Below, piece after piece: positions 1,503-30,563 of a DNA stretch of 64,000 nt. The position numbers were made by a program, and so were the translations under genes. The first letter of the stretch is position 1. Each line of letters opens with the position of its first letter. This stretch comes from Aequorivita sp. HC6-5. GTDB taxonomy: Bacteria; Bacteroidota; Bacteroidia; Flavobacteriales; Flavobacteriaceae. The notes beneath the pieces are model-generated. The model worked only from the letters and a program-made list of their open reading frames with translations. It did no database searches and was not told the DNA's origin. Where the stretch lies: the NCBI GenBank assembly GCA_905182755.1, contig CAJJCS010000007.1, positions 62,001 through 126,000 of the forward strand, read 5' to 3'.

Positions 1503-4434
1503 TTATTTTACAATAATACGCTGTACTTTATTTAATGACTCAGATCCAATTTTTATGAAATACACTCCAGAAGAGACATAAGACATATTGATAGTCTTGT
1601 TATACCCTGCGCCATTGTGCTCTAAAGTATAAAAAGCAAGATTTTGTCCTAGTGTATTATATACATGTATGTTTAAATCTTCTGTATAGGTTGTTGTTGA
1701 AAACTCAAGATCAAACATCTTGTTATCTGTAGATGTAATAATAAATTCTGCATCAGAGAATGTTGCGTCATCTAATCCTAGTTCTCCAGATATGTTTGCA
1801 GTATAGTCATTAGTACGACCAAATTCTAGATCATCACATGGGTTTAAAACATCACCATCTTGATCATCATCTTCTCCACGTAGTCTCATTCTGTGCGTTC
1901 CTGGAGTTACCCCAGATATAGTTGAAAAGTCTACCACAAAATCATAATCTTGATTTTCATTAGCAACCAACTCGCTGGCAACTAACTCAGATGTTTCAAA
2001 TTCATTGTTGTCATTAAAGTCAATCCATAAAGCAAAACGAGAATCTGCATAACCAACTTGCAATGTACCTTCAAATGGGTTGTCGTTTAGTACAAAGTTA
2101 AATACAATGTCTGAATCGTCACTGTATCCAGCTGGATCTGTTCCACAGTTTACATCAAGGTCTTGATCTGCTAGACTAAACTCTGTAACACCATCGTTAA
2201 AATCAGCACAATTACTCTCTGGTTGGCATAATGTACTGGTTATTGTTACTACCAAAGGATCATTAGCAGGATTATCATCACCATCAAGTGCTGTAGCAGC
2301 TGTAACAATATAATCTCCTATTTCAGAAAAATCTTCTGTTGCCGTAAATGTATATGTGTCAGACTCTCCAACAGCTAGAGTACCTGTGTAGGTTTCTGTT
2401 ACCTGAGACCCTCCATTTATATTATAAAACACCGGGATAGATGTTTGGGTGAGCATACCAAAGTTTTGTAATGTGATGGTAATTTGTTCTGCTGCTCCTA
2501 ATGGTCCTGACGTTGGAGCTGTAATAGCAACGACTCCAGTATCATAATCAAGCAAGCTTGTTACATCTTTACAAAACTGGTCGTTATCTGGCAGTTCATC
2601 TCCAGTAATTCCAGTAGCTGCACAAATAGTATAGGTTGTACCATCTGCTCCAAGATTTGCTGTAGCTGTAAATGTATAATCAAAGTTTGATCCTGGAGGT
2701 ATTGGGCCCGCAATCACTTCATTTATTGTTGTTCCTGCGTTTATTGTAAAACTTACTGGAATATTTGTTTGTACGTCTACACCAAAGTTGCGAACAGTTA
2801 CCGTAATGTTCTCAGTAGCACCTAGGTCACCATCTTCTGGCTGTACAATATCTATAACACCCATGTCTAAAGTAGCTTCTGGCGCTACTTTAAATACCGC
2901 TACATGATTTGTGAATCTATATTCTGTGATAAACCAAAATTCGTTATCGTTATTTGGATCAACATCTAATTTTGCATAATCCCCAAATCTATTTCCATTA
3001 ATATTTCCTGTACTGGCACCAAAGATAGTTTCTTCTACAGTCATGACACCTGAAGGGTCTGTTGAAAGGCGCCCGGTGTAAGCTGCAGAAACTCTATTTT
3101 GTGTTGGGTTAGGTGTATTGGGTCCAGCCATAGTTGAGTAACCCATGCCAATATTTCCTTGGTTATCCATTGCCATACTTCCCATCCATGCGTGTCTTCC
3201 ATCTGGCGCAGTGTAAGTTCCTTCTTGTTCCATACTCCAAGGACCTCCATCTGTAGTTTGACGAAACTCATACCAACGAATACCAGCTCTTTCAATACTA
3301 TTACTAGCCTCTACATCAACAACAAAGTTGAAAAGAGCAGAATTATAGGTTGGAAATTTTCTGAACTGTGCTTGATTCATAATTGTAGATTGCAGTGCAT
3401 CTATTGAAGAACCATTGGCGGGCTGAGCTAAATTAGCAAAACTACCACCGTCAAACACATTTATAAAAGGTTCAATATTTGTAAATACTTCTGGGTCTGA
3501 AACATCTGAGTTACTAGGAGTGTCAAAATCTACATTTACAGTCCAAATATTAATAGCATCTTGTGATACACCACCAAATCCATCATCTCTCATATACACT
3601 AGTGGAGCGCCTCCTGTTGTAGGGTGCACGTCATTTGTTATGTTAAGTACTTGCGCACTTGTAAAACCTTGTCCTTGTACACCACTTATTGTAAATCCTT
3701 GTATGTTTGCCGATGAGTCTCCATCTAAAACAGCATCTCTATCAATTACCCATACATCTCTAGCTCCATTATCTGTAATGTAATATCCATCTCTCCAAAC
3801 TGATAGTTTGTTGTAATCATTTATTTGAGAAAATAAATATACATCCCAAGTAGATGTTAATGGATTAGAACCACTAGAAACAGCAATTCTTACTCCTGAA
3901 TTAACATATAGATAACTAATAACCCATCTTTGGGCTAGATTATCATATGATGCAGTTAAATCACAACAACCGTTAGAATTAAAAATTTGCAGATGGTGCT
4001 GTTGGGCCTTGTACAATGTTTCCTACCTTGTCATAAATCATAAAGCCATTATTGTAAACAATAAAAGCATGTTCTGGACCTACAGCGATAGCTGGGTCAG
4101 AGGGAGAGCCTACACTATTTCCAACCTCAAAATCAAACAATGCATCTCTTGTAGGAATTTGTCCTGCAAGTGGATGTGCATTTTCAGTGAAGTAATCATT
4201 TTTTGTTTGAGGATCTTTTCCTGGAATCACATTTACCTTAGCAGACCTCCCATCTTGTGGCGGGCTTGTTTGAAAAATAGGTGTTTCTAGGTTTGATCTA
4301 GAGGCCAATGAAGGCACTGTGATTTTTTGAGCAGATTTCCCTACATAAGAAAGACCATCTTGAGTATCATCTTGAGCTTGCGCAGTAATAAAAGCTGCAA
4401 ACAAAAATAAGAGTAGTGTAACTTTAGATTTCAT
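1503..4434 (-). CDS. T9SS-secreted protein with GEVED and type A sorting domain (one frameshift)
   Basis: A secreted surface protein of about 976 residues. It has a signal peptide (LLLFLFAAFITAQAQ), a large N-terminal region with propeller-like repeats (residues about 90-460), two CARDB-like Ig repeats that each start near a D(M/T)GV motif, a GEVED-type domain (WIDFNDNNEFE, then HRMRLRGEDD), and a C-terminal sorting domain of about 75 residues ending in VQRIIVK, which marks type A T9SS cargo. The gene is split into two frames. The first runs 4434 to about 3985 and the second continues to 1503. Removing one base from the A5 run at 3981-3985 joins them as PSANFNSNGCCDL. The repeat and GEVED part is closely similar to the protein at 22817-25314. 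The ligand or substrate is unknown. The single indel is probably a sequence error rather than real decay, because both halves are otherwise intact. Confidence 0.85.
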
Positions 4435-4676
4435 ATTATTGATTTGAATTTAATTTTTGATTTCAATATGCTAAGATATAGATAATCAAGACTTCAAAAA
4501 AAAATTGACACACAATAGTGAGGTTTTAATGAGAATATTAGATTTTTTGCACTTGATAATTAAAATAAATGCTCTTTTTTAGAGATTTATCTCTGGCCGC
4601 TGTGTTACAACAAATTTCATTATATTGTATGATATAGTAGTAGTATCACAGAGACGTCATATAATAAAAATATCCA

Positions 4677-5036
4677 ATGATTGTAAAACACATTTATATT
4701 ACGCTTTTTATTGTGTTGGGAGTTTGCTGCTCATCAAAGAAAAAAAGCGCTGATATAGCCGCAAAAAACCAAATAAGCAGCGTCAAAAAAGCTGAACTAA
4801 TCTCTAAGGGTTTTACCCCTGGAGTCATCCAGGAGAGTACCCAAAAAGAAGATTGTATATTCACAATTCTAGTTAGTGAGCAAAATAAACAGCCCTACTT
4901 CCTTGATCCTATTAATCTAGATGAGGCCTACAAAAAAAATGGCCTAGCCGTGTTTTTTAAATACAGAGCCTTACGTATGATGAACCGCTGCCAGAGAGCA
5001 AATCCTGTTGAAATACAAGAAATGCAAACAAATTAA
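4677..5036 (+). CDS. Small putative lipoprotein
   Basis: A 119-residue protein that I do not recognise. It has a short hydrophobic leader ending in LGVCCSS, a plausible lipobox with Cys17 as the lipidated residue, followed by a lysine-rich linker and a compact mixed domain with two further cysteines (near EDCIF and NRCQR) that could form a disulfide. It stands alone between two minus-strand genes and is followed by a strong terminator. The ATG at 4677 is the only start that gives a signal sequence. Confidence 0.65.
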   Translation: MIVKHIYITLFIVLGVCCSSKKKSADIAAKNQISSVKKAELISKGFTPGVIQESTQKEDCIFTILVSEQNKQPYFLDPINLDEAYKKNGLAVFFKYRALRMMNRCQRANPVEIQEMQTN

Positions 5037-5068
5037 CTGCTTTTTAAACGCTCAAATTTCAGAACAAT

Positions 5069-5103
5069 AAAAAACCCCAATGACAATATCATTGGGGTTT
5101 TTT
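5069..5103. terminator. Bidirectional rho-independent terminator
   Basis: Perfect 15-bp arms at 5069-5083 and 5089-5103 (A6-CCCC-AATGA and its complement) enclose a 5-base loop. It serves the small lipoprotein gene on the plus strand and glyS on the minus strand. Confidence 0.9.
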
Positions 5104-5122
5104 ATATGCTACAAGACGTTAT

Positions 5123-6658
5123 TTATTGCAGCCAATCTTTCATGGACAAGCTCTTGGAAACCAAATCTGAAATATCTGAAATAGCAATACGCTCCTGCTC
5201 CATGGTATCTCTATGACGAATGGTTACTGTTTTGTCTTCAAGGGTTTGGTGGTCTACCGTTACACAAAATGGAGTACCATTAGCATCTTGACGTCTGTAG
5301 CGCTTACCAACGGCATCTTTTTCATCGTAAAACACGTTGTAATCCCACTTTAAATCTTCAATAATTTGTTTTGCAAGCTCTGGCAGTCCATCTCTTTTTA
5401 TGAGTGGGAATACAGCGATTTTTACCGGAGCCAATATGGCCGGTAGTCTCAAGACGGTTCTTGAAGAGCCGTCTTCTAGTGTTTCTTCTTGCAAAGAATT
5501 ACTAAACACAGCCAAGAACATTCTATCAAGACCTATAGATGTTTCTACCACATAAGGGGTGTAATTTTCTTTGAGCTCTGGGTCAAAAAATTGTAGTTTT
5601 TTACCGCTATGCGCCTCATGTGCTTTTAGATCAAAATCTGTACGAGAATGAATTCCTTCTAATTCTTTAAACCCAAACGGGAATTTAAATTCTATGTCTG
5701 TAGCAGCATTGGCATAATGAGCCAGCTTTTCATGGTCATGAAAGCGGTAATTTTCTGGACCAAGACCTAATGAGTGATGCCATTTTAGTCTAGTTTCTTT
5801 CCAGTAATCATACCATTTCATCTCCTGGCCTGGACGCACAAAAAATTGCATTTCCATTTGTTCAAACTCACGCATTCTAAAGATAAATTGTCTTGCCACA
5901 ATTTCATTCCTGAAGGCTTTTCCTGTTTGTGCAATACCAAAAGGAATTCTCATTCTTCCTGTTTTTTGCACATTTAAAAAGTTTACAAAAATACCTTGGG
6001 CTGTTTCTGGACGCAGGTATAAATCTGTAGCCGTTTCTGCAGAGGCGCCTAGCTTGGTGCCAAACATTAAGTTAAACTGCTTAACGTCTGTCCAGTTTTT
6101 AGAGCCGCTCACTGGGCATACAATACCTAATTCTTCAATGAGTGCTTTTACTCCAAGGAGGTCTTCTGCCTCTAAAAGGCGCGCCATGGTAGATAGCATT
6201 TCAGCCTTTTTCTCTCTATAGCCAATCACCCTAGCATTGGTGGTGACAAACTCTGTTTCATTAAAAGAATCTCCAAAACGTTTTTTGGCTTTGGTGATTT
6301 CTTTTTGAGCTTTATTTTCAAGTTTCTCTGCATGATCCTCAATCAAAACATCTGCGCGATATCTTTTTTTAGAGTCTTTGTTATCTATAAGCGGATCACT
6401 AAAGGCATCAACGTGACCAGAGGCTTTCCAGGTTTTTGGGTGCATTAGTATTGCGGCGTCTAAGCCCACAATATTTTGATGCATATACACCATACTTTTC
6501 CACCAGTACTCGCGTATGTTCTTTTTTAATTCTACCCCATTTTGAGCATAATCATACACAGCACTTAGCCCGTCATAGATTTCACTAGAACCAAAGATGT
6601 ACCCATACTCCTTTGCATGAGAAATTACTTTTTTGAATTGATCTTCATTGTTTGCCAT
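5123..6658 (-). CDS. glyS: Glycine--tRNA ligase (dimeric class II type)
   Basis: Charges tRNA-Gly with glycine in the cytoplasm. The 511-residue length and layout match the single-chain, alpha2-type enzyme and not the separate alpha/beta GlyQ-GlyS form. Visible features are the N-terminal GSSEIYDGLSAVYDY region, class II motif 2 around residue 248 (GIAQTGKAFRNEI), the glycine-site segment EFEQMEMQFF, motif 3 with ETSIGLDRMFLAV, and a C-terminal anticodon-binding domain starting near APVKIAVFPL. The start at 6658 gives the expected N-terminus MANNEDQFKK. On the minus strand a promoter-like TATTTTTG lies just upstream (plus 6663-6670). Its upstream neighbour on the same strand is an unrelated coiled-coil membrane protein. 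Confidence 0.97.
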   Translation of the reverse strand: MANNEDQFKKVISHAKEYGYIFGSSEIYDGLSAVYDYAQNGVELKKNIREYWWKSMVYMHQNIVGLDAAILMHPKTWKASGHVDAFSDPLIDNKDSKKRYRADVLIEDHAEKLENKAQKEITKAKKRFGDSFNETEFVTTNARVIGYREKKAEMLSTMARLLEAEDLLGVKALIEELGIVCPVSGSKNWTDVKQFNLMFGTKLGASAETATDLYLRPETAQGIFVNFLNVQKTGRMRIPFGIAQTGKAFRNEIVARQFIFRMREFEQMEMQFFVRPGQEMKWYDYWKETRLKWHHSLGLGPENYRFHDHEKLAHYANAATDIEFKFPFGFKELEGIHSRTDFDLKAHEAHSGKKLQFFDPELKENYTPYVVETSIGLDRMFLAVFSNSLQEETLEDGSSRTVLRLPAILAPVKIAVFPLIKRDGLPELAKQIIEDLKWDYNVFYDEKDAVGKRYRRQDANGTPFCVTVDHQTLEDKTVTIRHRDTMEQERIAISDISDLVSKSLSMKDWLQ

Positions 6659-6730
6659 AGCACAAAAATATAAAAATCCACTGCCATATGATGGGCAGCA
6701 GATTTTATTTTTTAAGTATTTTTTGAAATC

Positions 6731-7615
6731 TTACTTTAACATGAGTGTTGTACTCCCAATTTGCCTCTGAGCATCAAAAATATTGATGGTATACAACCCC
6801 TTCAATACATCTTGTCCTGTAGTGCCTACAATTGCACATACATCAAGGGCTTGGTTTTCATAAAAAACACTTTCGCTTTTGCTGTAGGTTAGTAGATCTT
6901 GGCCAAAGGTGATGTTTGATTTATCTCCAATGATGTTATTATCAGGATTAATAACCTGGACATATAATACCCTATCTCCTGCCTGTGCCAAGGTATTTGG
7001 CGCTATGGTGTAACAAACCCTAATTTTATCTGCTCTACTAGCGCGCTTGGTCTCTTTTATTTTACCTCCCTTACGAACAATAATAGCCGTAGCATCTAGG
7101 TTTGAAATACCAATCAAAGCACCTTTCTCTAAAGAGTTAAACAGTTGAGTATTTGCTGTTGTTACAGAGTCTACGACTTTAATGGTTTTGACTAAAACTG
7201 CTGTTGTGCTGTCTTTCTCTATGGCCAATCGCTGAGTGACAACTAGTAGACTATCTGCGCGTTTAAAGAGTTGTGTGCGCTCATTTTTTAAGCCTCTAAC
7301 CTGGGCCTTATATCTGGTAATTATAGAAAGATTGGCCTTGTAATCCTTGACAGAGTCTAGAAGTACTATGATGCGGTCTCTTGCGGCTATTAAATCTTTG
7401 TCTTTAAGCTCATTGTCTTGCAAGATCTCATTGTAAGAAACAACAAGCGCTTCCAGCTCTTTTTGAACCTCAGCTTTATCTGCCTCTAAAAAAAGCACTG
7501 TTTCTTTATTTTGTTCTATCAGTGTGTAGGTATACCCCGCCAAGGATACTAACAAAACCACTAATAGGCCTATTAAAATCTTTGCACGATTATTGTTACT
7601 GCTTTGAGTTGTCAT
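6731..7615 (-). CDS. Membrane-anchored coiled-coil protein, unknown function
   Basis: A 294-residue protein of unknown role. Residues about 13-33 form one transmembrane segment (ILIGLLVVLLVSLAGYTYTL). Residues about 35-165 are rich in Leu, Glu, Lys and Asp with heptad spacing and form a long coiled coil, probably in the periplasm. The last 120 residues look like a beta domain with two cysteines (VCYTIAPN and DVCAIVGTT) that may form a disulfide. Similar one-helix coiled-coil proteins are common in Flavobacteriaceae as hypothetical proteins. A -7-like TACCTTTG lies upstream on the minus strand (plus 7654-7661) and comF is divergent, so the two genes share a 62-bp control region. Confidence 0.75.
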   Translation of the reverse strand: MTTQSSNNNRAKILIGLLVVLLVSLAGYTYTLIEQNKETVLFLEADKAEVQKELEALVVSYNEILQDNELKDKDLIAARDRIIVLLDSVKDYKANLSIITRYKAQVRGLKNERTQLFKRADSLLVVTQRLAIEKDSTTAVLVKTIKVVDSVTTANTQLFNSLEKGALIGISNLDATAIIVRKGGKIKETKRASRADKIRVCYTIAPNTLAQAGDRVLYVQVINPDNNIIGDKSNITFGQDLLTYSKSESVFYENQALDVCAIVGTTGQDVLKGLYTINIFDAQRQIGSTTLMLK

Positions 7616-7677
7616 GATGTGTGTTTGGTGTTAATTTATTACATTACAGATGCCAAAGGTACTAAAACTAAAAAGTA

Positions 7678-8364
7678 ATGCTTAATATACTAAACTCCCT
7701 TTTAGATCTTTTATTTCCAAAAATCTGCAATGGTTGTCAGGGAGTTCTCACTGCCCATGAACAAATTATTTGCACCACTTGTAGGCACCAGGCAACATTG
7801 GCTGGATTTCATATAACAAAGGCAGATACCCTAAAAAATATATTCTACGGCAGGGTGGCTATCCAAGAAGCAACTGCACTTTTAAAGTTTCAAAAAAAAG
7901 GCATCACACAAACATTATTGCACAACCTTAAGTATAAAAAACAAGAAGATATTAGCGCTTTTCTGGGCCAATGGCTTGGGGCAGAACTCTCAGAGATACC
8001 TGCGTATAAAAACATTGATGTGGTGGTTGGTGTGCCGCTTCACAAAAACAAACAAAAAGCGAGAGGCTATAACCAAGTAACAGGTTTTGGCAAGGCAATT
8101 GCCGAGGCCCTTGACATTGTTTATCTGGAAGATGTGCTGGTCAAGGTTTCAAAAACAGACTCACAAGTTTTTAAAACAAGGAGTAAAAGAATCCAAGACA
8201 ACCAAGAATTTACCCTTATAAACTCAGCAAAGATAAAAAACAAGCACATTTTACTTGTTGATGACATTGTTACCACTGGAGCTACTTTAGAGAGTTGTGC
8301 TGTGCTATTACAACAAGCAGAAAATGTAAAAATTAGTATTGCTACCATGGCAATTTCTCTGTGA
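7678..8364 (+). CDS. comF: ComF-family phosphoribosyltransferase-like protein
   Basis: A 228-residue ComF-type protein. The N-terminus carries two zinc-finger-like CxxC pairs (CNGC and CTTC), and the C-terminal half is a type I phosphoribosyltransferase fold with the PRPP-binding loop ILLVDDIVTTGATLESC near residues 190-206. In naturally competent bacteria ComF acts inside the cell in DNA uptake and recombination; in Bacteroidota its role is not established. Length and both motifs fit the family well. Divergent from the coiled-coil gene at 7615 and followed 61 bp later by a lipoprotein gene on the same strand. Confidence 0.9.
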   Translation: MLNILNSLLDLLFPKICNGCQGVLTAHEQIICTTCRHQATLAGFHITKADTLKNIFYGRVAIQEATALLKFQKKGITQTLLHNLKYKKQEDISAFLGQWLGAELSEIPAYKNIDVVVGVPLHKNKQKARGYNQVTGFGKAIAEALDIVYLEDVLVKVSKTDSQVFKTRSKRIQDNQEFTLINSAKIKNKHILLVDDIVTTGATLESCAVLLQQAENVKISIATMAISL

Positions 8365-21510: not shown

Positions 21511-22560
21511 TTACTCGTTTTCTTGAGTAGCACTCCAACCTCTTGCAATAAGAGGTATTTTGGTATTGTCTCTAGTGATAAGGTGAGTTCCTTCCGTAGG
21601 CTTTAAAATATGACCTATTACTGTCATGTTGGGGTTGGCTTTTATTTTAGGGTAATCTTCTTGAGAGATGGTAAATAACAACTCATAATCTTCTCCTCCA
21701 TTAAGCGCAATTGTTGTGCTATCCATGTTAAACTCCTCAGAGGTGGTAATTACTTGAGGGTCTAGAGGTATTTTATCTTCATAAATTGTGCACCCAACCT
21801 CAGACTGCTTACAGATGTGTAATATTTCAGAAGAAAGCCCATCACTTACATCAATCATTGAGGTGGGTTTTACCCCCAGATCTTTTAATAGTGCAGGAAT
21901 GTCTTTTCTAGCCTCTGGTTTTAATTGTCTTTCTATCAAATATGAATAAGGCTCTAAATCTGGTTGTGAGTTTGGATTTACTTTAAACACCTGCTTCTCT
22001 CTTTCTAGAATCTGAAGGCCCAAATAGGCTGCGCCCAGATCTCCAGTGAGCAAGACCAAATCATTCTCTTTTGCGCCGTCTCTGTACACAACCTGCTTTT
22101 TATCAACTTCTCCAAGAGCCGTAATACTTATCATAAGCCCATGGGTAGATGATGTTGTGTCTCCTCCAATTACATCTACATTGTAATATTTGGCAGCAGT
22201 GGCAATACCTGCATATAGCTCCTCTAGGGCCTCAACCGGAAATCTATTGGAAACGGCAATAGAAACTGTAATTTGAGTAGCCGTTGCGTTCATGGCAAAA
22301 ATATCGCTCACATTAACAACCACGCTTTTATACCCTAAATGCTTTAAAGGCATGTAGCTCAAATCAAAGTGTACTCCTTCAATCAACAAATCTGTGGTTA
22401 CCACCGTTTGTTTTTTGTGGTCAATAACAGCTGCGTCATCCCCAATACTCTTTATTGTTGAGCTTTGCTTAACATCAAAATGTTTGGTGAGATGCTCTAT
22501 TAGGGCAAACTCCCCCATTGAAGAAATGGGTGTTTTTAAAGAATCTTTATTTTCTAACAT
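21511..22560 (-). CDS. thiL: Thiamine-monophosphate kinase
   Basis: Phosphorylates thiamine monophosphate to thiamine pyrophosphate, the last step of cofactor synthesis in the cytoplasm. The 349-residue protein shows the PurM/ThiL-like fold: N-terminal FALIEHLTKHF, the metal/ATP motif SIGDDAAVI near residue 40, TTDLLIEGVHFDLSY, VVNVSDIFAM, GGDTTSS, LTGDLGAAYLGLQ, MIDVSDGLSSE and NGGEDYELLF. All are standard for ThiL. A -7-like TATTTTTG lies upstream on the minus strand (plus 22581-22588). No other thiamine gene is near. Confidence 0.95.
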   Translation of the reverse strand: MLENKDSLKTPISSMGEFALIEHLTKHFDVKQSSTIKSIGDDAAVIDHKKQTVVTTDLLIEGVHFDLSYMPLKHLGYKSVVVNVSDIFAMNATATQITVSIAVSNRFPVEALEELYAGIATAAKYYNVDVIGGDTTSSTHGLMISITALGEVDKKQVVYRDGAKENDLVLLTGDLGAAYLGLQILEREKQVFKVNPNSQPDLEPYSYLIERQLKPEARKDIPALLKDLGVKPTSMIDVSDGLSSEILHICKQSEVGCTIYEDKIPLDPQVITTSEEFNMDSTTIALNGGEDYELLFTISQEDYPKIKANPNMTVIGHILKPTEGTHLITRDNTKIPLIARGWSATQENE

Positions 22561-22816: not shown

Positions 22817-25314
22817 ATGAAACAATTACTAATTACTTTGTCTTTTTTATCCATTATTAGTATGTCTGGGCAAACACCTTGCACAAGCGGTACTGCTGGT
22901 GAGTACCCATGTAACGGCTATGACCTTCAGTCTTTTATCAGTCTTGATGAAATGGATGCTCAACAAGGAAATGACTCTTGGGGATGGACAGATCCACAAA
23001 ATGGTAAAGAATATGCCTTAGTTGGATTAGATAATGGAACTGCATTTATTGATGTTTCAGACCCTGTTAATGCTGTTTATCTAGGAAAACTTCCTACGCA
23101 CACTCAAAACAGTACATGGAGAGATATAAAAACATACAACAACCATGCGTTTATTGTTAGCGAAGCCTCTAATCATGGAATGCAAGTTTTTGATTTAACC
23201 AGGTTGCGAGATGTTTCTAACCCTCCAGAAACCTTTGACGAAGATGCTCATTATAGCGGTTTTGGAAGTGCGCACAATATTATCATTAATGAAGACTCAG
23301 GATACGCCTATGGCGTAGGAACCTCAACCTTTAATGGCGGCCCTCATTTTGTAGATATTTCAGACCCTACAAACCCAACACCAGCGGGCGGCTACAGTGA
23401 TGACTCCTACAGTCATGACGCGCAAGTGGTAACCTACTCTGGGCCAGACACAGAACATCTTGGCAAAGAAATCCTGATAGGAAGCAATGAAAATGAAATT
23501 GCAATTGTAGACATCACAAATAAAAACAACCCTATTGGCCTTTCTACAATATCATACTCAAATGTAGAATACACACACCAAGGTTGGTTTACTGAAGATC
23601 AACGCTATTTTATTGTAGGAGATGAAATTGATGAGATAAACGTTGGTTTTAACACAAGAACGATCATTTTTGATTTTGAAGACCTGGACAATCCATCGTT
23701 TCATTTCGAATATGAGGGTCCTACAGAGGCTATAGACCATAATGGTTATGTGAAGGGTGATAAGTATTATTTATCTAACTACAGAGCGGGGATGAGAGTT
23801 CTTGACATCTCACAGATTGGTAATGAAAACATAACAGAAATTGGCTTTTTTGATACATATCCAGATAGTGACAGCGCAAATTTTGACGGAGCATGGAACG
23901 TCTATCCATTCTTTGCAAGTAACAACATAGTGATTAGTGATATAAACAGAGGGTTCTTTTTAGTAAGAGAACCAAGTATTGGCCAAGATACAGGTGTAAG
24001 TAGCAATCACTTCTCCAGTAACAGGAAGTGGCTTGTCTGGCTCAGAGGTGGTAACAATTGAGATCCAAAATTTTGGTGGTACTACACAAACATCAATTCC
24101 AGTATTTTATTCTTTAGATGGAGCAGCGCCTGTTAATGAAACTTACACAGGGTCAATAGCTCAAGGAGCCACAGACACCTATTCATTTACAACGACGGTA
24201 GATTTATCTGAATTTACAGACTATGTATTTGTTGCAGGAACAGAGCTTGTTGGTGATGACGATACCTCAAATGATGATACAACTGCTGAGGTATCAAATC
24301 TTGGCCAAGATACAGGTGTAGTGGCAATCACTTCTCCAGTAACTGGAGTTGGCTTGACTAACGCAGAGGTGGTAACAATTGAGATCCAAAATTTTGGTGG
24401 TACTACACAAACATCAATTCCAGTATTTTATTCTTTAGATGGAGCAGCGCCTGTTAATGAAACTTACACAGGGTCAATAGCTCAAGGAGCCACAGACACC
24501 TATTCATTTACAACAACAGTAGATTTATCTGAACTTACAATCTATGTATTTGTTGCAGGAACAGAACTTGCTGGTGATGACGATACTTCTAATGATGATA
24601 CAACTGCTGAGGTATCAACCTTTTTGTGTCAACCTGAAGCAAACTGTACTCTTGGAGATGGTTTAACATTGGTTTCTAATTGAAGAAATTAACAATCCAT
24701 CAGGATGTGAGACAGATGGTTATGGAGATTTTACAGATCTTATTGCAAACCTAGCACAAGGCGGGACCTATGATATTACCCTATCTACAGGATTTGGGAA
24801 TCAGTTTGTAAAGATTTGGGTTGATTTTAACAATGACTTTACTTTTTCTAACAACGAAGTAATTTTAAATAACTTTGTTATCGCTCCAGGATCTGCAGCT
24901 GGTAATTACACGGAGACTACATCTATAACGATACCAGCAAATGCAACATTAGGATCCCACAGAATGCGTGTAAAGACGAACTGGAGCGCAAATGTTCCTG
25001 CAGATGCTTGTGATGAAACAACATACGGAGAGACTGAAGATTACACTGCAAATATCACAGATGAGCTAGGAGCGGCAGATGAAGCAATAATTGATTTTGA
25101 AATAGCTCCGAACCCTGCAAAAGAAAATATTACAATTACAGCTACTAGTGAGCCAATAAAATCTTTAGAGGTTTTTAACATTCTTGGGCAACGCGTTTTA
25201 AATTTAACATTTGATGCTACACCCTCAAAAAAGGTAAACATCACTTCTTTTAAAAGCGGTATGTACCTCATTAGAATAAATACGCAGATCACTAAGCGAT
25301 TAATTGTTAAGTAA
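22817..25314 (+). CDS. Choice-of-anchor B (LVIVD) T9SS cargo protein with GEVED domain (two frameshifts)
   Basis: A secreted surface protein of about 831 residues. The signal peptide (LLITLSFLSIISMSG) is followed by an LVIVD-repeat beta-propeller of the choice-of-anchor B type (residues about 20-390, for example AFIDVSDPVNAVYLGKLPTH). Then come two 107-residue CARDB-like repeats, a GEVED domain (IWVDFNNDFTFSNNE, HRMRVKTNW) and a type A sorting domain ending in TKRLIVK. Two extra bases disturb the frame: one near 23998 (GTAAGTAGC against GTAGTGGC in the second repeat) and one near 24676. Correcting both gives one continuous reading. It heads a same-strand run with the propeller lipoprotein, MbnP-like and MbnH-like genes, so a joint role at the cell surface is likely. 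The ligand is unknown. Confidence 0.87.
23981..24623 (+). repeat. Tandem 321-bp repeat (two copies) inside the T9SS cargo gene
   Basis: Two copies begin at GGCCAAGATACAGG (23981 and 24303). The unit is 321 bases (107 codons) once one extra base near 23998 is removed. Bases 24043-24193 and 24364-24514 are identical over 151 positions, while the flanks differ. This points to a recent duplication or gene conversion, and is also a place where an assembly could collapse or expand. Confidence 0.92.
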
Positions 25315-25319
25315 TCACA

Positions 25320-26680
25320 ATGAAAAACCTCTTCAGCTTTATTTATAATTGCTATAGCATTGCTCTTCTCTTGCTCAAATGATGACGGGGTAGATGTCCC
25401 CGCACCATATCCAGAAGATTTTTTGGGAGAAATTGATTTTGTTACAACCTTTGGGGGTAGTCAAAATGAGACTATTGTATCTCTTGTACAAGCCAGCGAT
25501 GGGGGCTATGTTTTAATGGGTTCTACAAATAGCACAGATGGAGACATAACAGGGAAAAAGTGGTGATGATGATGATTTTTGGCTTTTAAAAACAACACAG
25601 GAAGGTGAAATTGTCTTCAATAAAGTATACGGAGGCTCTAACACAGATACAGCTACAAGTTTAATCAATACTGCAGATGGCGGTTTTATTGTATGCGGCT
25701 ATAGTTCAAGTAGTGATGGAGATGTTTCAAACAACGAAGGATTTCAAGACTACTGGATAACAAAACTAGATGCTCAAGGAGAAATTTCCTGGGAAAAAAC
25801 ACATGGCTTTGCAGGGTCAGACCAGGCCCTTAAAATCATCCAGACCGCCAGTGGAAACTTTTTTGTTACCGGCTTTTTTGATGTTTCAGCAAGCGGAAAT
25901 CAAGGAAATGATGATGGTAAAATGGGAGCACCCTCTAAGGCGACCTTGCATGGTGTTGGAGAGTTTTGGGGCATCCTTATGGACCAAAACGGAGATACTA
26001 TTTGGAGGCGCTACTTTGGAGGCTCCAGCAATGATAGAAGCTACGATGTTGTAGAGACCGACGATGGTGGTTTTATTATGATTGGAGGATCAGAGAGTAC
26101 AGATTTTGACATTACAGATAATAAAGGATCCTATGATTTTTGGATGGTTCGGGTAGCTAGTAATGGAGATAAATTGTGGACCAAATCTCTAGGAGGAAGT
26201 GAGATAGACCAAGGATATGGTATTACTAAAACTGAAGATGGAAATTACATCGTCGTTGGAGACACCAGAAGTTCAGATGGTGATGTTAGCGCTTTAAGTG
26301 GAAATGCAGATGCTTGGGTGGTAAAATTCTCACCTAGTGGAGATATCATTTGGGAAAAAACATTTGGCGAAGCAGCCTTTGATTCTGCAAAGAGTATTAT
26401 AGGGTTGCAAAACGGAAATTTTGCCATCGTAGGTAATACAAGAAGCTCTATTGACGGTTTTATAAATAGGGGTCAAAACGATGCCTGGGTGTTTATAATT
26501 GATGGAAATGGAAATCTCAAATTTAATTATATCATTGGTGGTTCTTCTTTAGATTTTGCCAACGCTATAATTGAGACTCAAGACAATAAACTACTTATTG
26601 CTGGATCTACAGAAAGCAACGATATAGATATCCCAGAAAATAAAGGAAGTCAAGATGCGTTATTAATTAAAATAAAATAA
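25320..26680 (+). CDS. Propeller-repeat lipoprotein (two frameshifts)
   Basis: About 453 residues. The ATG at 25320 starts MKNLF, and after one extra base near 25331-25336 the leader continues ALFIIAIALLFSC, a good lipoprotein signal with SNDD after the cysteine. A second extra base in the A5 run at 25555-25559 breaks the frame at GDITGK; the next frame continues SGDDDDFWLLKTT to the stop at 26680. The mature part consists of about seven repeats of the form GG(S)xxDxxxxIxxTxDGGFIxxGxxxSxDGDV, each followed by D.W..K, a beta-propeller-like repeat seen in many Bacteroidota lipoproteins. Six bases separate it from the choice-of-anchor B gene and nine from the MbnP-like gene, so it is in the same operon. 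Function not known. Confidence 0.83.
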
Positions 26681-26688
26681 GCTCCCAA

Positions 26689-27378
26689 ATGTTTAAAAAA
26701 GCTGCCTTTTTAGTATTGCTAGTTTTGCCCTTTGTGGCTTGTGATAAAAACGATGATGATCAAGCCCAACAAAACACCCCGGTAAGTGTTGGTTTTCTTC
26801 ACAGCTTTTATGAAGATGAGGTTTCTGTAAGTTCTAATACCATACAATACACAAACGGCTTTGGCACATCACTGAGCATCACAAGGCTTCGTTATTTGAT
26901 ATCTCAGGTGAGCTTCACCAACCAAGATGGTATCAAAACCATAGTAAAAGACTATCACCTTGTTGATCTAAGTCAAGATAATAGTCTTACAATTAATGAT
27001 ATTTTACTACCCCCGGGGGCTTATAATTTGAAAATGCGCTTTGGATTTACAGAAGCTACAAACACCTCGAGTATATACCCAGATTTAAACGCAGCATCTT
27101 GGAATGTGCCAGAGAACCTTGGTGGAGGATATCATTACATGCAACTGGAAGGAAGATGGTTAGACCCAGGTGACACCCCTGACGAGCCTTATCTATATGC
27201 TTACCACACTATTAGCGCTGTCCAAAACCCTGGCCCAGAAAACACAAGAGAGGACACCTCTATAGAAATAGATTTAGGAGAAATAACTGTTACCCAGGGC
27301 GCTACTCAAATTAATGTTAACATGCACATTGACCAGTGGTTTGAAAATCCTAACCTTTGGGATTTAAGTCAGCCTTAA
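26689..27378 (+). CDS. MbnP-like lipoprotein
   Basis: A 229-residue MbnP-family protein. The signal peptide ends in a lipobox (LPFVACDK, Cys18). The family core is visible: FLHSFYEDEV, SITRLRYLISQVSF, YHLVDLSQ, LPPGAYNLKMRFGF, and the hallmark GGGYHYMQLEGRW followed by YLYAYHTISA and INVNMHIDQWFENPN. In methanobactin operons MbnP binds copper and carries a kynurenine made from tryptophan by the dihaem partner MbnH; such a function here is inferred from homology. The MbnH-like gene is next. The stop at 27376 seems early: the same frame continues for 30 more codons with a family-like tail (see next entry). Confidence 0.88.
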   Translation: MFKKAAFLVLLVLPFVACDKNDDDQAQQNTPVSVGFLHSFYEDEVSVSSNTIQYTNGFGTSLSITRLRYLISQVSFTNQDGIKTIVKDYHLVDLSQDNSLTINDILLPPGAYNLKMRFGFTEATNTSSIYPDLNAASWNVPENLGGGYHYMQLEGRWLDPGDTPDEPYLYAYHTISAVQNPGPENTREDTSIEIDLGEITVTQGATQINVNMHIDQWFENPNLWDLSQP

Positions 27379-27471
27379 CGGCATGACTTGATGGGAAACT
27401 ACACCGCCCAAAAAATGATGCAAGAAAACGGTCAAAACGTATTTTCTCTAGCAAGTAATATGAGTGATTAA
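27379..27471 (+). pseudogene. C-terminal tail of the MbnP-like gene beyond an in-frame stop
   Basis: After the TAA at 27376-27378 the same frame reads RHDLMGNYTAQKMMQENGQN followed by VFSLASNMSD and a stop at 27469. Tails of this kind (xxMxxxxxxQxxxxENGxxVFSL) are usual at the end of MbnP-like proteins, so the stop is probably a base change or sequence error at a tyrosine codon. With it the protein would be about 260 residues, and its stop would lie 10 bases before the start of the MbnH-like gene. Confidence 0.65.
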
Positions 27472-27481
27472 TTATTATTTT

Positions 27482-28555
27482 ATGATACAAAAAATCCCTT
27501 TTATATTTTGCCTTTTTTGTATCGCTATCTCATGCGGTGAGGATGACAACCAAAATCAAGGGTACTCCCCTACACCTGTAAACATAGCTGTTCCAGCAAT
27601 TTTCTCGCAATTACTACCTCCCCCAGAAATACCCATTAATAACCCACTAACAGAACAAGGGGTTGCACTTGGAAGAGCATTGTTTTATGAAAAACAATTA
27701 TCTGCAGACAACACCTTGGCCTGTGCTGGATGTCATAAACCCAATCAAGGTTTTAGTGACCAGCGCAGATATAGCATTGGTATAGATGGTATTGCCGGGT
27801 TTAGAAATTCGATGCCTATTGTTAACATTGCCTGGAATACAAAAAACAAGTTTAATTGGGACGGTAGCGCTAATTCTCTAGAAGAGCAGGTTCTAGAGCC
27901 TGTTGTCAATGAAATAGAAATGCACAACACTTGGCCCAATGTGGTTGCAACCCTGCAAACAGACCCTGGGTATCTATCTGGGTTTGAACAGGCCTTTGGA
28001 ACAAGCACAATATCTCAAGAGCTGGTTGCTAAAGCTCTTGCGCAGTTTATACGCACACTGGTTTCTGCAGATGCTCCCTTTGACAAATATTTGTTGGCTC
28101 AGGCAACATTAACACCTCTAGAAGAACAAGGCCTTGCCGTTTTTTTAGATGAAAATCGTGGAGATTGTTTTCATTGTCATGGGAGCCCTAGCAACCCATT
28201 ATGGACAGACAATGATTTTCATAACAATGGTCTAGATGAAGATTTTACAGACCTAGGCCTAGGAGATATCACTGGAGATCCTGCGCAATTTGGATTGTTT
28301 AAATCTCCATCATTGCGCAATCTAGCCTATACTGCCCCTTACATGCATGATGGCCGCTTTCAGACACTAGACCAGGTGATAGACCACTACAGTGAAGGCC
28401 TTGTTTTTAGCCCCACCATAGATCCATTAATGAAAACTGTTGCCCAGGGCGGAGTGCAACTTACACCCCAAGACAAAGCTGCCTTAAAGGCTTTTTTGTT
28501 AACCCTCTCTGACCCTAGTCTGGCAAACAATCCTGCATACCAAAACCCAAACTAA
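27482..28555 (+). CDS. Dihaem cytochrome c peroxidase, MbnH/MauG-like
   Basis: A 357-residue lipoprotein (Cys18 in AISCGEDD) of the CCP/MauG superfamily. Two haem-binding motifs are present: CAGCH at residues 81-85 and CFHCH at 229-233. Other family marks are MPIVNIAWNTKNKFNWDG, VNEIEMHN, LFKSPSLRNLAYTAPYMHDG and the C-terminal LKAFLLTLSD. I start at the ATG at 27482; a GTG at 27464 would overlap the MbnP tail. Direct linkage to an MbnP-like gene suggests it is the MbnH-type enzyme that oxidises tryptophan in its partner, rather than only a peroxide scavenger. Found in the periplasm or on the outer membrane. The sixth ligand of the second haem cannot be assigned by eye. Confidence 0.9.
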   Translation: MIQKIPFIFCLFCIAISCGEDDNQNQGYSPTPVNIAVPAIFSQLLPPPEIPINNPLTEQGVALGRALFYEKQLSADNTLACAGCHKPNQGFSDQRRYSIGIDGIAGFRNSMPIVNIAWNTKNKFNWDGSANSLEEQVLEPVVNEIEMHNTWPNVVATLQTDPGYLSGFEQAFGTSTISQELVAKALAQFIRTLVSADAPFDKYLLAQATLTPLEEQGLAVFLDENRGDCFHCHGSPSNPLWTDNDFHNNGLDEDFTDLGLGDITGDPAQFGLFKSPSLRNLAYTAPYMHDGRFQTLDQVIDHYSEGLVFSPTIDPLMKTVAQGGVQLTPQDKAALKAFLLTLSDPSLANNPAYQNPN

Positions 28556-28633
28556 GCAAGTACATTTGTGTAATTTACTAAGATAATTCTCTAACAAGTA
28601 CTTTCTAAATTATACAAAAATAGGATTCAAGCC

Positions 28634-28657
28634 TAAGGGGTTACTTGAAACCCCTTA
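28634..28657 (+). terminator. Probable terminator after the MbnP/MbnH cluster
   Basis: A nine-base stem (28634-28642 with 28649-28657, TAAGGGGTT and its complement) and a six-base loop. The following T run is weak (TTGTAT), so confidence is moderate. It separates the cluster from the suf promoter. Confidence 0.5.
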
Positions 28658-28710
28658 TTGTATCATAGATTTTTAATATTTTATTAGGTATAAAAAAGAG
28701 GTTTATATCG

Positions 28711-28720
28711 TATATTTGCA
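28711..28720 (+). promoter_or_regulatory. -7 element of the suf operon promoter
   Basis: TATATTTGCA matches the extended TAnnTTTG(CA) consensus. It lies 35 bases ahead of the sufA start; no TTG is seen at the -33 position, which suggests a promoter that depends on regulation. Confidence 0.7.
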
Positions 28721-28724
28721 CCCT

Positions 28725-28745
28725 AATTTAGACGAATTCTAATTT
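28725..28745 (+). promoter_or_regulatory. Candidate operator at the suf transcription start
   Basis: An inverted repeat with arms AATTTAGA (28725-28732) and TCTAATTT (28738-28745) that match at seven of eight positions. The inner 15-mer has the 7-1-7 form TTAGACG-a-ATTCTAA, a shape used by Fur/PerR-type repressors. It begins seven bases after the -7 element and ends directly before the sufA ATG, so a bound protein would block initiation. The regulator is not identified. Confidence 0.5.
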
Positions 28746-29075
28746 ATGATAAAAGTAAGCGATACAGCGCGAATTAAAATTTCGCAATTAATGGCAGAAG
28801 ACGGCTTTAGCATTGACGTAGACTTTGTACGCGTTGGTGTAAAGAGCGGTGGTTGTTCAGGACTTTCTTACGAGTTAGATTTTGATGGTGGTATTGGCGA
28901 AAACGATAAGGTTTTTGAAGAGAATAACGTTAAAATTGCAGTAGACAAAAAAAGTTTTTTATACCTAGTTGGAACAACCCTAGAATACAGCGGCGGTTTA
29001 AACGGTAAAGGATTTGTTTTTAACAATCCTAATGCCAACAGAACCTGCGGCTGCGGAGAATCATTCTCTTTATAA
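28746..29075 (+). CDS. sufA: A-type iron-sulfur carrier protein
   Basis: A 109-residue HesB/IscA-family protein that carries or delivers Fe-S clusters. The three family cysteines are present: Cys in SGGCSGLSYEL and the CGCGES pair near the end. The length and the first position in the suf operon fit SufA; IscA or ErpA are alternative names for the same fold. An inverted repeat ends directly before the start codon. 40 bases separate it from sufB. Confidence 0.92.
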   Translation: MIKVSDTARIKISQLMAEDGFSIDVDFVRVGVKSGGCSGLSYELDFDGGIGENDKVFEENNVKIAVDKKSFLYLVGTTLEYSGGLNGKGFVFNNPNANRTCGCGESFSL

Positions 29076-29115
29076 TTTAAAACTAAGAATTCTTCACAGG
29101 AATTCATAAGTGCAT

Positions 29116-30563
29116 ATGAGCAAGTATACAGAAGACGATTTAAAGAAAGAACTTGAGACAAAGGAATATGAATACGGTTTCTACACAGATTTAGAAAGCG
29201 ATACGTTTCCAATTGGACTCAACGAGGATATTGTACGAGCGATTTCAAAGAAAAAGCAGGAGCCGCAGTGGATGACCCAGTGGAGACTTGACGCTTTTAA
29301 AGTATGGAAGTCTATGCAGGAGCCGCAGTGGGCTAATGTGAATTATACAAAACCAGATTTTCAAGCCATTGCCTACTATTCTGCTCCAAAGGCGGTAGAC
29401 CCAAATAAAACACTAGATGATGTAGATCCAGAACTACTAGCGATGTATAAAAAGCTAGGTATTTCTGTGGATGAGCAGAAAAAAATGAACAATGTTGCTA
29501 TCGATATTGTGGTAGATTCTGTTTCTGTTGCTACTACGTTTAAAAAGACACTCAGTGAAAAGGGTATTATTTTTATGAGTATTTCTGAAGCAATTAAAGA
29601 GCATCCAGAGCTTGTGAAAAAATATCTTGGAACTGTAGTGCCTACCAAAGACAATTTCTATGCCTCTTTGAACAGTGCTGTATTTAGCGATGGTTCTTTT
29701 TGTTATATCCCAAAGGGTGTTAGATGCCCAATGGAACTGTCTACCTATTTTAGAATCAATCAAGCAGGAACAGGACAATTTGAAAGAACGCTCCTTATTG
29801 CAGATCAAGGAAGTTATGTTTCTTATCTAGAGGGCTGTACAGCGCCAAGTAGAGATGAAAATCAATTACATGCAGCTGTAGTAGAACTTATTGCCTAGAT
29901 GACGCAGAGATTAAATACTCTACGGTGCAAAACTGGTATCCTGGAAGCGCAGAAGGAAAAGGAGGGGTATATAACTTTGTAACTAAAAGAGGATTGTGCG
30001 AAAAAAACGCAAAAATATCCTGGACACAAGTAGAAACTGGAAGCGCCGTTACCTGGAAATATCCTAGTTGTATTTTAAAAGGAGACAACAGTATCGGAGA
30101 GTTTTATTCTATTGCAGTAACAAACAATTACCAGCAAGCAGACACGGGAACAAAGATGATCCATTTGGGTAAAAACACACGTAGCACGATTATCAGTAAG
30201 GGTATTTCTGCAGGAAAATCTCAAAACAGCTATCGTGGTTTGGTAAAAATAAATGCAAGCGCAGAGAATGCACGTAATTTCTCTCAGTGTGATTCTTTAC
30301 TGATGGGTAATGAATGTGGAGCACATACATTTCCATACATAGAGGTTAAAAACAAAACAGCTCAAATAGAGCATGAAGCAACCACTAGTAAAATTGGTGA
30401 AGATCAAATATTTTATTGTAATCAAAGAGGGATTGACACAGAAAAGGCCATTGCACTTGTTGTAAATGGTTTTAGCAAAGAAGTGTTAAACAAACTCCCG
30501 ATGGAATTTGCAGTAGAGGCTCAAAAATTATTAGAGATAAGCCTTGAAGGCTCTGTTGGATAA
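29116..30563 (+). CDS. sufB: Fe-S cluster assembly protein SufB (one frameshift)
   Basis: SufB is the scaffold subunit of the SufBCD complex on which new iron-sulfur clusters form. The corrected product is 482 residues, the usual length. The first part runs from [11 protein letters not shown] to VVELIA. The frame then breaks at 29894-29895, where one C seems to be missing (GCCTAGAT instead of GCCCTAGAT). The next frame continues [20 protein letters not shown] to the end. Conserved SufB segments include [42 protein letters not shown] and [18 protein letters not shown], with the cluster-binding Cys and Glu region intact. As no second assembly system is seen here and sufB is usually essential, a sequence error is far likelier than a dead gene. 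I prefer the ATG at 29116 over the GTG at 29110. Confidence 0.93.

Follow-up and report, generated by a model that had tools for sequence, protein, structure and literature searches.

The MbnP protein of Methylosinus trichosporium OB3b, encoded next to the di-haem enzyme MbnH, reportedly binds copper at a site composed of Met, kynurenine (Kyn) and His, according to a 2021 PNAS study. Methanethiol oxidase (SBP56) has a propeller fold. Its genes form an mtoX-SCO1-mauG cluster, for which a role of mauG in maturation is suggested (PMC5739008). CorA and MopE, methanotroph copper proteins encoded next to di-haem enzymes, have a site made of kynurenine and two His (PMC3912023, PMC3423442), and MbnP/MbnH pairs outside methanobactin operons have already been published (PMC3621798, a 2013 paper that still found no data tying MbnP to copper). 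We analyzed a stretch of 64,000 nucleotides (hereafter the window) from Aequorivita sp. HC6-5, a member of the Flavobacteriaceae (assembly GCA_905182755.1, contig CAJJCS010000007.1, positions 62,001 to 126,000), in which an MbnP-family lipoprotein and an MbnH/MauG-like di-haem enzyme are encoded side by side at 26689-28555, below two propeller genes. These genes belong to a four-gene cassette whose order recurs far beyond chance, and the MbnP subgroup that predominates in it (A1) lacks the M-x-W-x-W motif although it has kept the MbnP fold.

Both members of the pair were recognized by profile searches, in agreement with an earlier note on this DNA that had proposed adjacent MbnP-like and MbnH-like genes. 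The window MbnP (26689..27378; forward strand, as for all features below unless stated otherwise) passes the Pfam gathering score (PF20243, 84.2 bits versus 27). The complete MbnP of a close relative (locus L146), modeled by AlphaFold with a predicted local distance difference test (pLDDT) value of 90.7, matches the solved MbnP structure 7l6g (Foldseek E 8.3e-07; Z 16.7 over 210 residues), the next entry reaching Z 8.3. The enzyme (27482..28555) is lipoprotein-like, scores 180.4 bits against PF03150 (CCP_MauG) and carries two CxxCH haem sites, at 27722..27736 and 28166..28180, the latter reading CFHCH. Among solved structures it is closest to 6e1c, 'Di-heme enzyme' (E 7.9e-55), which we take to be the MbnH of M. 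trichosporium OB3b.

Two collections were used: a family survey of 199 genomes drawn across the Flavobacteriaceae, from which 108 MbnP loci were fetched (109 with the window; without two MbnP fragments from genome G124), and a set of named relatives, comprising the best 80 of 370 pattern-matched stretches from one scan of species genomes. Sorted by their neighbours, the 109 loci fall into type A (66 loci, those with the cassette), type B (28), type C (9) and type D (5), with one unassigned. The M-x-W-x-W motif is read in 42 of the 43 non-cassette rows (28/28 in type B, 8/9 in type C, 5/5 in type D and the unassigned row) and in six type A rows, designated A2 (L109, L110 and L112-L115), versus none of the 60 other type A rows, designated A1, which include the window. 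At the place of the canonical motif the window reads S-W-N-V-P, the Met being gone (W138-N139-V140, 27100..27108, as located by alignments of MbnP rows). Defined by their first and third residues, the A1 forms are W-x-V-P (43 rows), W-x-W-P (11) and F-x-V-P (6), each ahead of GGGYH. The string GGGYHYMQLEGRW (GGGYHYM), which the earlier note had taken for the hallmark of MbnP, marks this divergent subgroup instead. The model TIGR04052 'MbnP_like_WxW', which carries the database name 'MbnP family copper-binding protein', gives no match to the complete L146 MbnP at E 0.1, nor to the truncated window MbnP at 1e-3, whereas it matches one protein each of A2, B, C and D with E-values between 1.7e-07 and 2e-14, all under its 140-bit cut-off. 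A profile built from B, D and A2 rows matches 7l6g weakly (E 0.02), and 7l6g reads GMAWNWQAG...HVGS there.

Which residue of the A1 proteins corresponds to the kynurenine position depends on the register of the alignment. Direct profile alignment with hhalign matches W138 to the initial Trp of WxW (Prob 99.85); this residue is Trp in 54 of the 60 survey rows and Phe in the remaining 6, and among 76 named relatives, a set that overlaps the survey, 8 have Phe or Leu instead. Gapless alignment with the three proteins that read M-E-W-P among the distant loci L270, L293, L294 (another Bacteroidota family) and L267 shifts the register and puts W138 on Met and V140 on Trp, in which case Val stands at the kynurenine position in 49 of the 60 A1 rows. 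As judged from these alignments, the kynurenine position is W138 or V140, and the canonical site is incomplete under both registers. A transfer to this protein of the OB3b kynurenine-copper site, as implied by the earlier note, is not supported as stated: M-x-W-x-W has here lost its Met and one of its Trp residues.

Other positions are strongly conserved. His150, His174, W225 and M235 of L146 are invariant in the 76 named relatives; the first three are His149 (27133..27135), His173 (27205..27207) and W224 of the window, and M235 lies in the tail past the window stop codon. W218 of L146 (W217 of the window, which with W224 spans 27337..27360) is present in 75 of the 76, and M152 (Met151 of the window) in 74. 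His149, the His of GGGYH, is not His in the B, C, D and A2 rows, and neither W217 nor W224 is the majority residue in types B to D, so that the Trp pair is a feature of A1. His173, by contrast, is conserved at 100% in each type, is invariant in a 26-row A1 alignment, and aligns with the His of the canonical site. The window pair resembles that of OB3b in its MbnP fold, in the adjacent di-haem MauG-type enzyme and in one shared His, but differs from it in lacking both M-x-W-x-W and MbnB and in possessing propeller partners and the additional conserved His149, W217 and W224. In line with the earlier note, which had seen no methanobactin gene, MbnB is unmatched in the window's own genome (77.5% complete) and exceeds the cut-off in none of the 199 family genomes, two weak matches falling below it. 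A surface protein encoded next to a di-haem enzyme gene and, in A1 MbnP, two invariant His are also reminiscent of CorA/CorB and MopE/SACCP (PMC3912023, PMC3423442); the Kyn-x-His spacing of CorA and MopE is not seen in A1 MbnP.

The pair of the window also shares its strand and its close spacing with a type IX secretion system (T9SS) surface protein and a propeller lipoprotein, as the earlier note had observed. The cassette is bounded, as is usual for it, by thiL on the left (thiamine-phosphate kinase, 21511..22560, reverse strand; TIGR01379, 313.6 bits) and by a sufA-type Fe-S protein gene on the right (28746..29075; TIGR00049, 110.7 bits). Directly upstream of MbnP lie a choice-of-anchor B gene, whose predicted propeller domain (residues ~21-385; 22817..24061) scores 591.4 bits against TIGR04312 (cut-off 100), and a propeller lipoprotein gene, PROP (25339..26680). 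The choice-of-anchor B gene apparently continues in another frame through a tandem repeat region (24033..24683) to a C-terminus (24964..25314) with a partial GEVED match and a T9SS type A sorting domain (PF18962, 47.3 bits; TIGR04183, 52.5 bits). Eight bases separate the end of PROP from the start of MbnP, and about 100 bases the MbnP stop codon from the MbnH start.

Across the family survey, MbnP was found in 99 genomes, choice-of-anchor B in 110 (over cut-off in 106) and both together in 71. The order in type A loci is choice-of-anchor B (from one to at least four copies), PROP, MbnP and MbnH, with two small open reading frames (ORFs) between MbnP and MbnH in L109. Choice-of-anchor B accompanies MbnP in 66/66 type A loci versus 0/43 other MbnP loci, and all 60 survey loci with an A1 MbnP sit in the cassette. 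Among the named relatives, which include Tenacibaculum, Tamlana, Algibacter, Formosa, Flavivirga and Polaribacter, the complete set of four ORFs stands in the expected order in 76 of the 80; as for the four exceptions, L148 and L216 lie at contig ends and start within the cassette, and two Polaribacter loci have no PROP match, one of them (L220) having no MbnH match either. The gap between PROP and MbnP is at most 30 bp in 72 of 78 named relatives, and the median gaps are 10 and 2 bp. The neighbourhood survey that the earlier note had called for thus revealed co-occurrence of the four genes. Pairs outside a methanobactin operon are not new (PMC3621798); what is added here is a four-gene cassette fixed across Flavobacteriaceae. 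No description of the cassette, of the motif loss or of the pair swapping detailed below was found in the literature searched, which omits most subscription papers. In a survey of 247 genomes of the phylum, MbnP was found in 67 and choice-of-anchor B in 93; among 20 loci fetched there, most of them selected because their MbnP scores were low, propellers lie beside MbnP only in L269, from a genome of the same family.

An MbnH-profile match was obtained in 143 of the 199 family genomes. None of them, genomes with canonical MbnP included, reaches the cut-off of TIGR04039 'MbnH family di-heme enzyme' (362.85), which the window enzyme also misses with 237.9 bits. Both CxxCH sites, W132 and Y309 (28388..28390; counted from the GTG at 27464) are present in 60/60 A1 enzymes, W132 presumably corresponding to the inter-haem Trp of MauG and Y309 standing where the MauG-type axial ligand is expected. 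The partner enzyme is also intact in the six A1 rows with Phe at W138. Residue 309 is Tyr in 28/28 type B enzymes and Phe or Leu in 9/9 type C enzymes; since the latter stand beside WxW MbnP proteins, the Tyr is not needed for pairing. In five loci (L161, L181, L178, L158 and L193), MbnH has no early in-frame ATG, and its apparent start is a TTG or other codon near the end of MbnP.

A maximum-likelihood tree was inferred for 73 MbnH proteins, including 25 of the 60 A1 rows and excluding, by length, a split MbnH (L135). The 25 A1 enzymes form one side of a branch (100/100), and the A2 enzymes, although encoded in the cassette, join the canonical branch along with L143 (100/99). Both placements recur in a second, quick tree. 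The slot downstream of PROP is thus filled by either of two kinds of pair, in which a given kind of enzyme goes with a given kind of MbnP. The A2 cassettes have thiL and suf genes as neighbours in five cases out of six, the exception being that of L114, which is located elsewhere.

The copy in the window is frame-broken as assembled: choice-of-anchor B, PROP, MbnP and sufB are all interrupted (22817-30563). The choice-of-anchor B domain is unbroken to 23971, with a frame break between 23971 and 24061, and PROP, traced by tblastn with the intact 452-amino-acid protein of L146, occupies two frames (25339-25560 and 25553-26677). The MbnP ORF ends about 30 codons early at a TAA (27376-27378) and is followed in frame by the conserved C-terminal tail (27379..27468), so that residues 1-260 of the L146 MbnP align over 26689-27468 in a single frame. 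In three close relatives, L145, L146 and L147, whose MbnP proteins are 98, 90 and 82% identical to that of the window, the four cassette genes are intact with gaps of a few bases and the MbnP ORF is unbroken (258-260 amino acids); sufB, the choice-of-anchor B tail and PROP are also unbroken in L146 and L147. The gene sufB is normally essential. Because sufB is broken too and close relatives are intact, the breaks are probably indel errors of the assembly rather than decay of the cassette, and a pseudogene reading was set aside. Near-identical tandem repeats lie between the propeller and the T9SS tail of choice-of-anchor B (24033-24640 in the window; 1812-4628 in L146, where the protein is one ORF), and its total length varies from 473 (L145) to 938 (L146) and 725 (L147) amino acids.

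The choice-of-anchor B protein of L146 is predicted to adopt a propeller fold (pLDDT 92). Its leading Foldseek match is 5hrm, a Sphingobium phosphotriesterase (E 1.1e-11), with WD40 proteins tying by Z; since there is also no meaningful sequence match to PDB chains, no catalytic function is claimed from the fold. A viral fold search gave nothing informative. The propeller beside a MauG-type gene resembles the mtoX-SCO1-mauG arrangement (PMC5739008), but Pfam scans of choice-of-anchor B give a weak LVIVD match and no SBP56 match at E 1e-3 (window) or 0.1 (L146), SBP56 is not among the fold matches listed, and the cassette holds an MbnP protein. Over 99 choice-of-anchor B sequences, kept from 101 by excluding ORFs under 380 amino acids, five His (120, 153, 200, 254 and 308; window 22817-23971) are near-invariant and several Trp invariant; they are distributed over the length of the predicted propeller, which is what a metal site located on its axis would require.

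Elsewhere in the Flavobacteriaceae, types B, C and D resemble the window pair in combining the same two protein families side by side, but together with the unassigned locus they differ from A1 in their retention of M-x-W-x-W. Type B lies beside Cys-motif proteins, type C beside a TonB receptor and a weakly YtkA-like protein, and type D beside a YHYH protein. In type B, a small Cys-motif protein is encoded upstream, and the downstream protein, in the member read, has CSHNHDMMLMKPFCDLCGC near its N-terminus and looks metal-binding (clusters c11 and c13, represented by L088:7404-7778 and L139:9794-10783; no Pfam family for either representative). The window's own genome has a second pair, of type D, with canonical M-x-W-x-W (L135; G000:C2:242394-256942, 3503-7875), in the order ECF sigma factor, small ORF at the anti-sigma place, weak Metal_resist match, the pair (its MbnH split into two ORFs) and a T9SS-anchored YHYH protein. 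A1-like MbnP proteins also occur outside Flavobacteriaceae, in L270, L293, L294 and L267, which read M-E-W-P or M-L-W-P ahead of GGG...YHYM; in L270 the pair is followed by a TonB-dependent receptor, a common uptake setting.

We tentatively read the cassette, with a probability of about 0.42, as a surface metal-handling module built around a remodelled MbnP. Its three lipoprotein-like products and a T9SS- or lipid-anchored propeller would reside at the outer surface, where the dedicated MbnH would oxidize a Trp of its partner MbnP, possibly the A1-specific W224 or W217, or W138 where present. The modified MbnP, its site rebuilt from the canonical Met/Kyn/His site, might then bind copper, or a different soft metal ion, with His149 and His173 as ligands and Met151 close by, and pass it to or from the propeller proteins. 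In favor of this interpretation, a canonical pair occupies the place below the same propellers in six loci, and the pair thus behaves as a unit; by a crude pattern, moreover, a Cys is present in the lipobox region of 66/66 MbnP, 66/66 MbnH and 64/66 PROP proteins of type A loci. Both copper binding and Trp oxidation in A1 are suggested by analogy, and the copper part is given less than even odds. As for the surface copper system of a different kind proposed by the earlier note, 'different kind' suits the data better than 'as in methanotrophs', and copper itself would still be an extrapolation from the known case.

Several observations weigh against this interpretation. An acidic stretch after the lipobox Cys is expected of surface lipoproteins, but such a stretch follows in only 52, 37 and 32 of the 66 MbnP, MbnH and PROP proteins of type A loci. 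The housekeeping genes flanking the cassette are likewise conserved (thiL in 59/66 and a suf gene in 64/66 type A loci as fetched), and part of the synteny therefore reflects vertical descent. A1-like pairs outside Flavobacteriaceae lack propellers, none being found beside L270 or L267. The position of the putative kynurenine may be Val in the window MbnP, under the second register, and the case for W217 and W224 as candidate oxidation targets is one from conservation. Furthermore, 39 survey genomes have choice-of-anchor B without MbnP. Twenty of these were fetched, selected for choice-of-anchor B near sufB (some others have it elsewhere), and 19 of them keep the propellers in the arrangement thiL < choice-of-anchor B > PROP > sufA > sufB, in a few cases supplemented by one or two ORFs, the twentieth having choice-of-anchor B only. 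The propellers hence do not need the pair. In a quick tree of PROP, the proteins from MbnP-less loci share a single branch (95), and these loci may therefore reflect one event; the PROP positions that differ with and without the pair were considered as an interaction surface and dropped, since this shared ancestry explains them.

How far the chemistry of the pair has changed can be read in several ways. A somewhat unlikely variant has MbnH retargeted, oxidizing or cross-linking W217/W224 outside the kynurenine motif to create a new protein-derived metal site presented to the surface propeller partners; the canonical site would then have been dismantled stepwise, from M-x-W-x-W to the M-x-W-P of distant relatives, then to W-N-V-P and F-N-V-P. 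At the other extreme, the canonical site would persist after all, with MbnH turning W138 into kynurenine and Cu(I) being bound as in the OB3b protein. The hhalign register, the prevalence of Trp at W138 and the retention of His173 are consistent with this, but the Met is missing in 60/60 rows, W138 is replaced in some proteins whose MbnH is intact, TIGR04052 leaves L146 unmatched at a threshold at which A2, B, C and D proteins are found, and intermediates such as M-E-W-P...GGGYHYM of L270 put W138 on Met and V140 on Trp, so that we consider a surviving canonical site distinctly unlikely. Metal binding may instead have been given up, leaving MbnP with a structural role as a surface lipoprotein, while MbnH would act on H2O2 as a peroxidase or accept electrons. 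Such a change would fit the missing Met and the one or two Trp residues missing from the motif, and also the absence from the A1 cassette of any metal-themed gene or neighbour pointing to copper, in contrast with the TonB receptor and weakly YtkA-like protein of type C and the YHYH protein of type D. A Tyr at the MauG-type axial position favors a modifying enzyme, and its presence in 60/60 A1 enzymes speaks against such a loss, although type C enzymes without it stand beside WxW MbnP. Equivalents of His149 and His173 in 76/76 named relatives and the six canonical pairs below the same propellers argue in the same direction, making a loss of metal binding unlikely.

Two further explanations concern the partnership with the propellers. 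MbnH could mature the propeller rather than MbnP, by analogy with the proposal for methanethiol oxidase, a copper enzyme encoded beside mauG and SCO1 (PMC5739008), and the near-invariant His and invariant Trp residues of choice-of-anchor B would be compatible with such a substrate. These residues, however, are conserved at 95-100% in 20 proteins without the pair versus 98-100% in 57 A1 proteins, and because they are maintained irrespective of the pair, we hold this alternative very unlikely; the cassette, moreover, normally contains no further gene, although no SCO1 model was searched. Finally, the propeller genes and the pair may be mere neighbours through shared ancestry of the chromosomal region, not working together. 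The conservation of thiL and suf, the single branch of MbnP-less PROPs and the A1-like pairs without propellers in other families are what this would predict. It is harder to reconcile with the median gaps of 10 and 2 bp, with the constant association of A1 MbnP with propellers within Flavobacteriaceae (60/60), with canonical pairs below the same propellers, that of L114 away from thiL and suf, and with a site devoid of all four genes in genome G144 (L138, G144:C9), where thiL adjoins sufA with nothing between and an unrelated type B pair lies a few kb away. Mere neighbourhood is hence hardly probable, and our preferred interpretation remains that of a module for metal handling at the surface in which MbnP has been remodelled.

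Database names derived from methanobactin genes suggest a kynurenine copper site for these proteins, and the widespread A1 subgroup (60 family rows) is without the motif even though its enzyme is kept, so that the chemistry is not transferable from the known case. The combination of a lost motif and a retained enzyme constitutes a natural test of the oxidation target of MbnH. The three natural states of the slot below the propellers, occupied by an A1 pair, by a canonical pair or by no pair, mean that what the pair does can be addressed experimentally in cultured members of the family, Tamlana and Algibacter among them.

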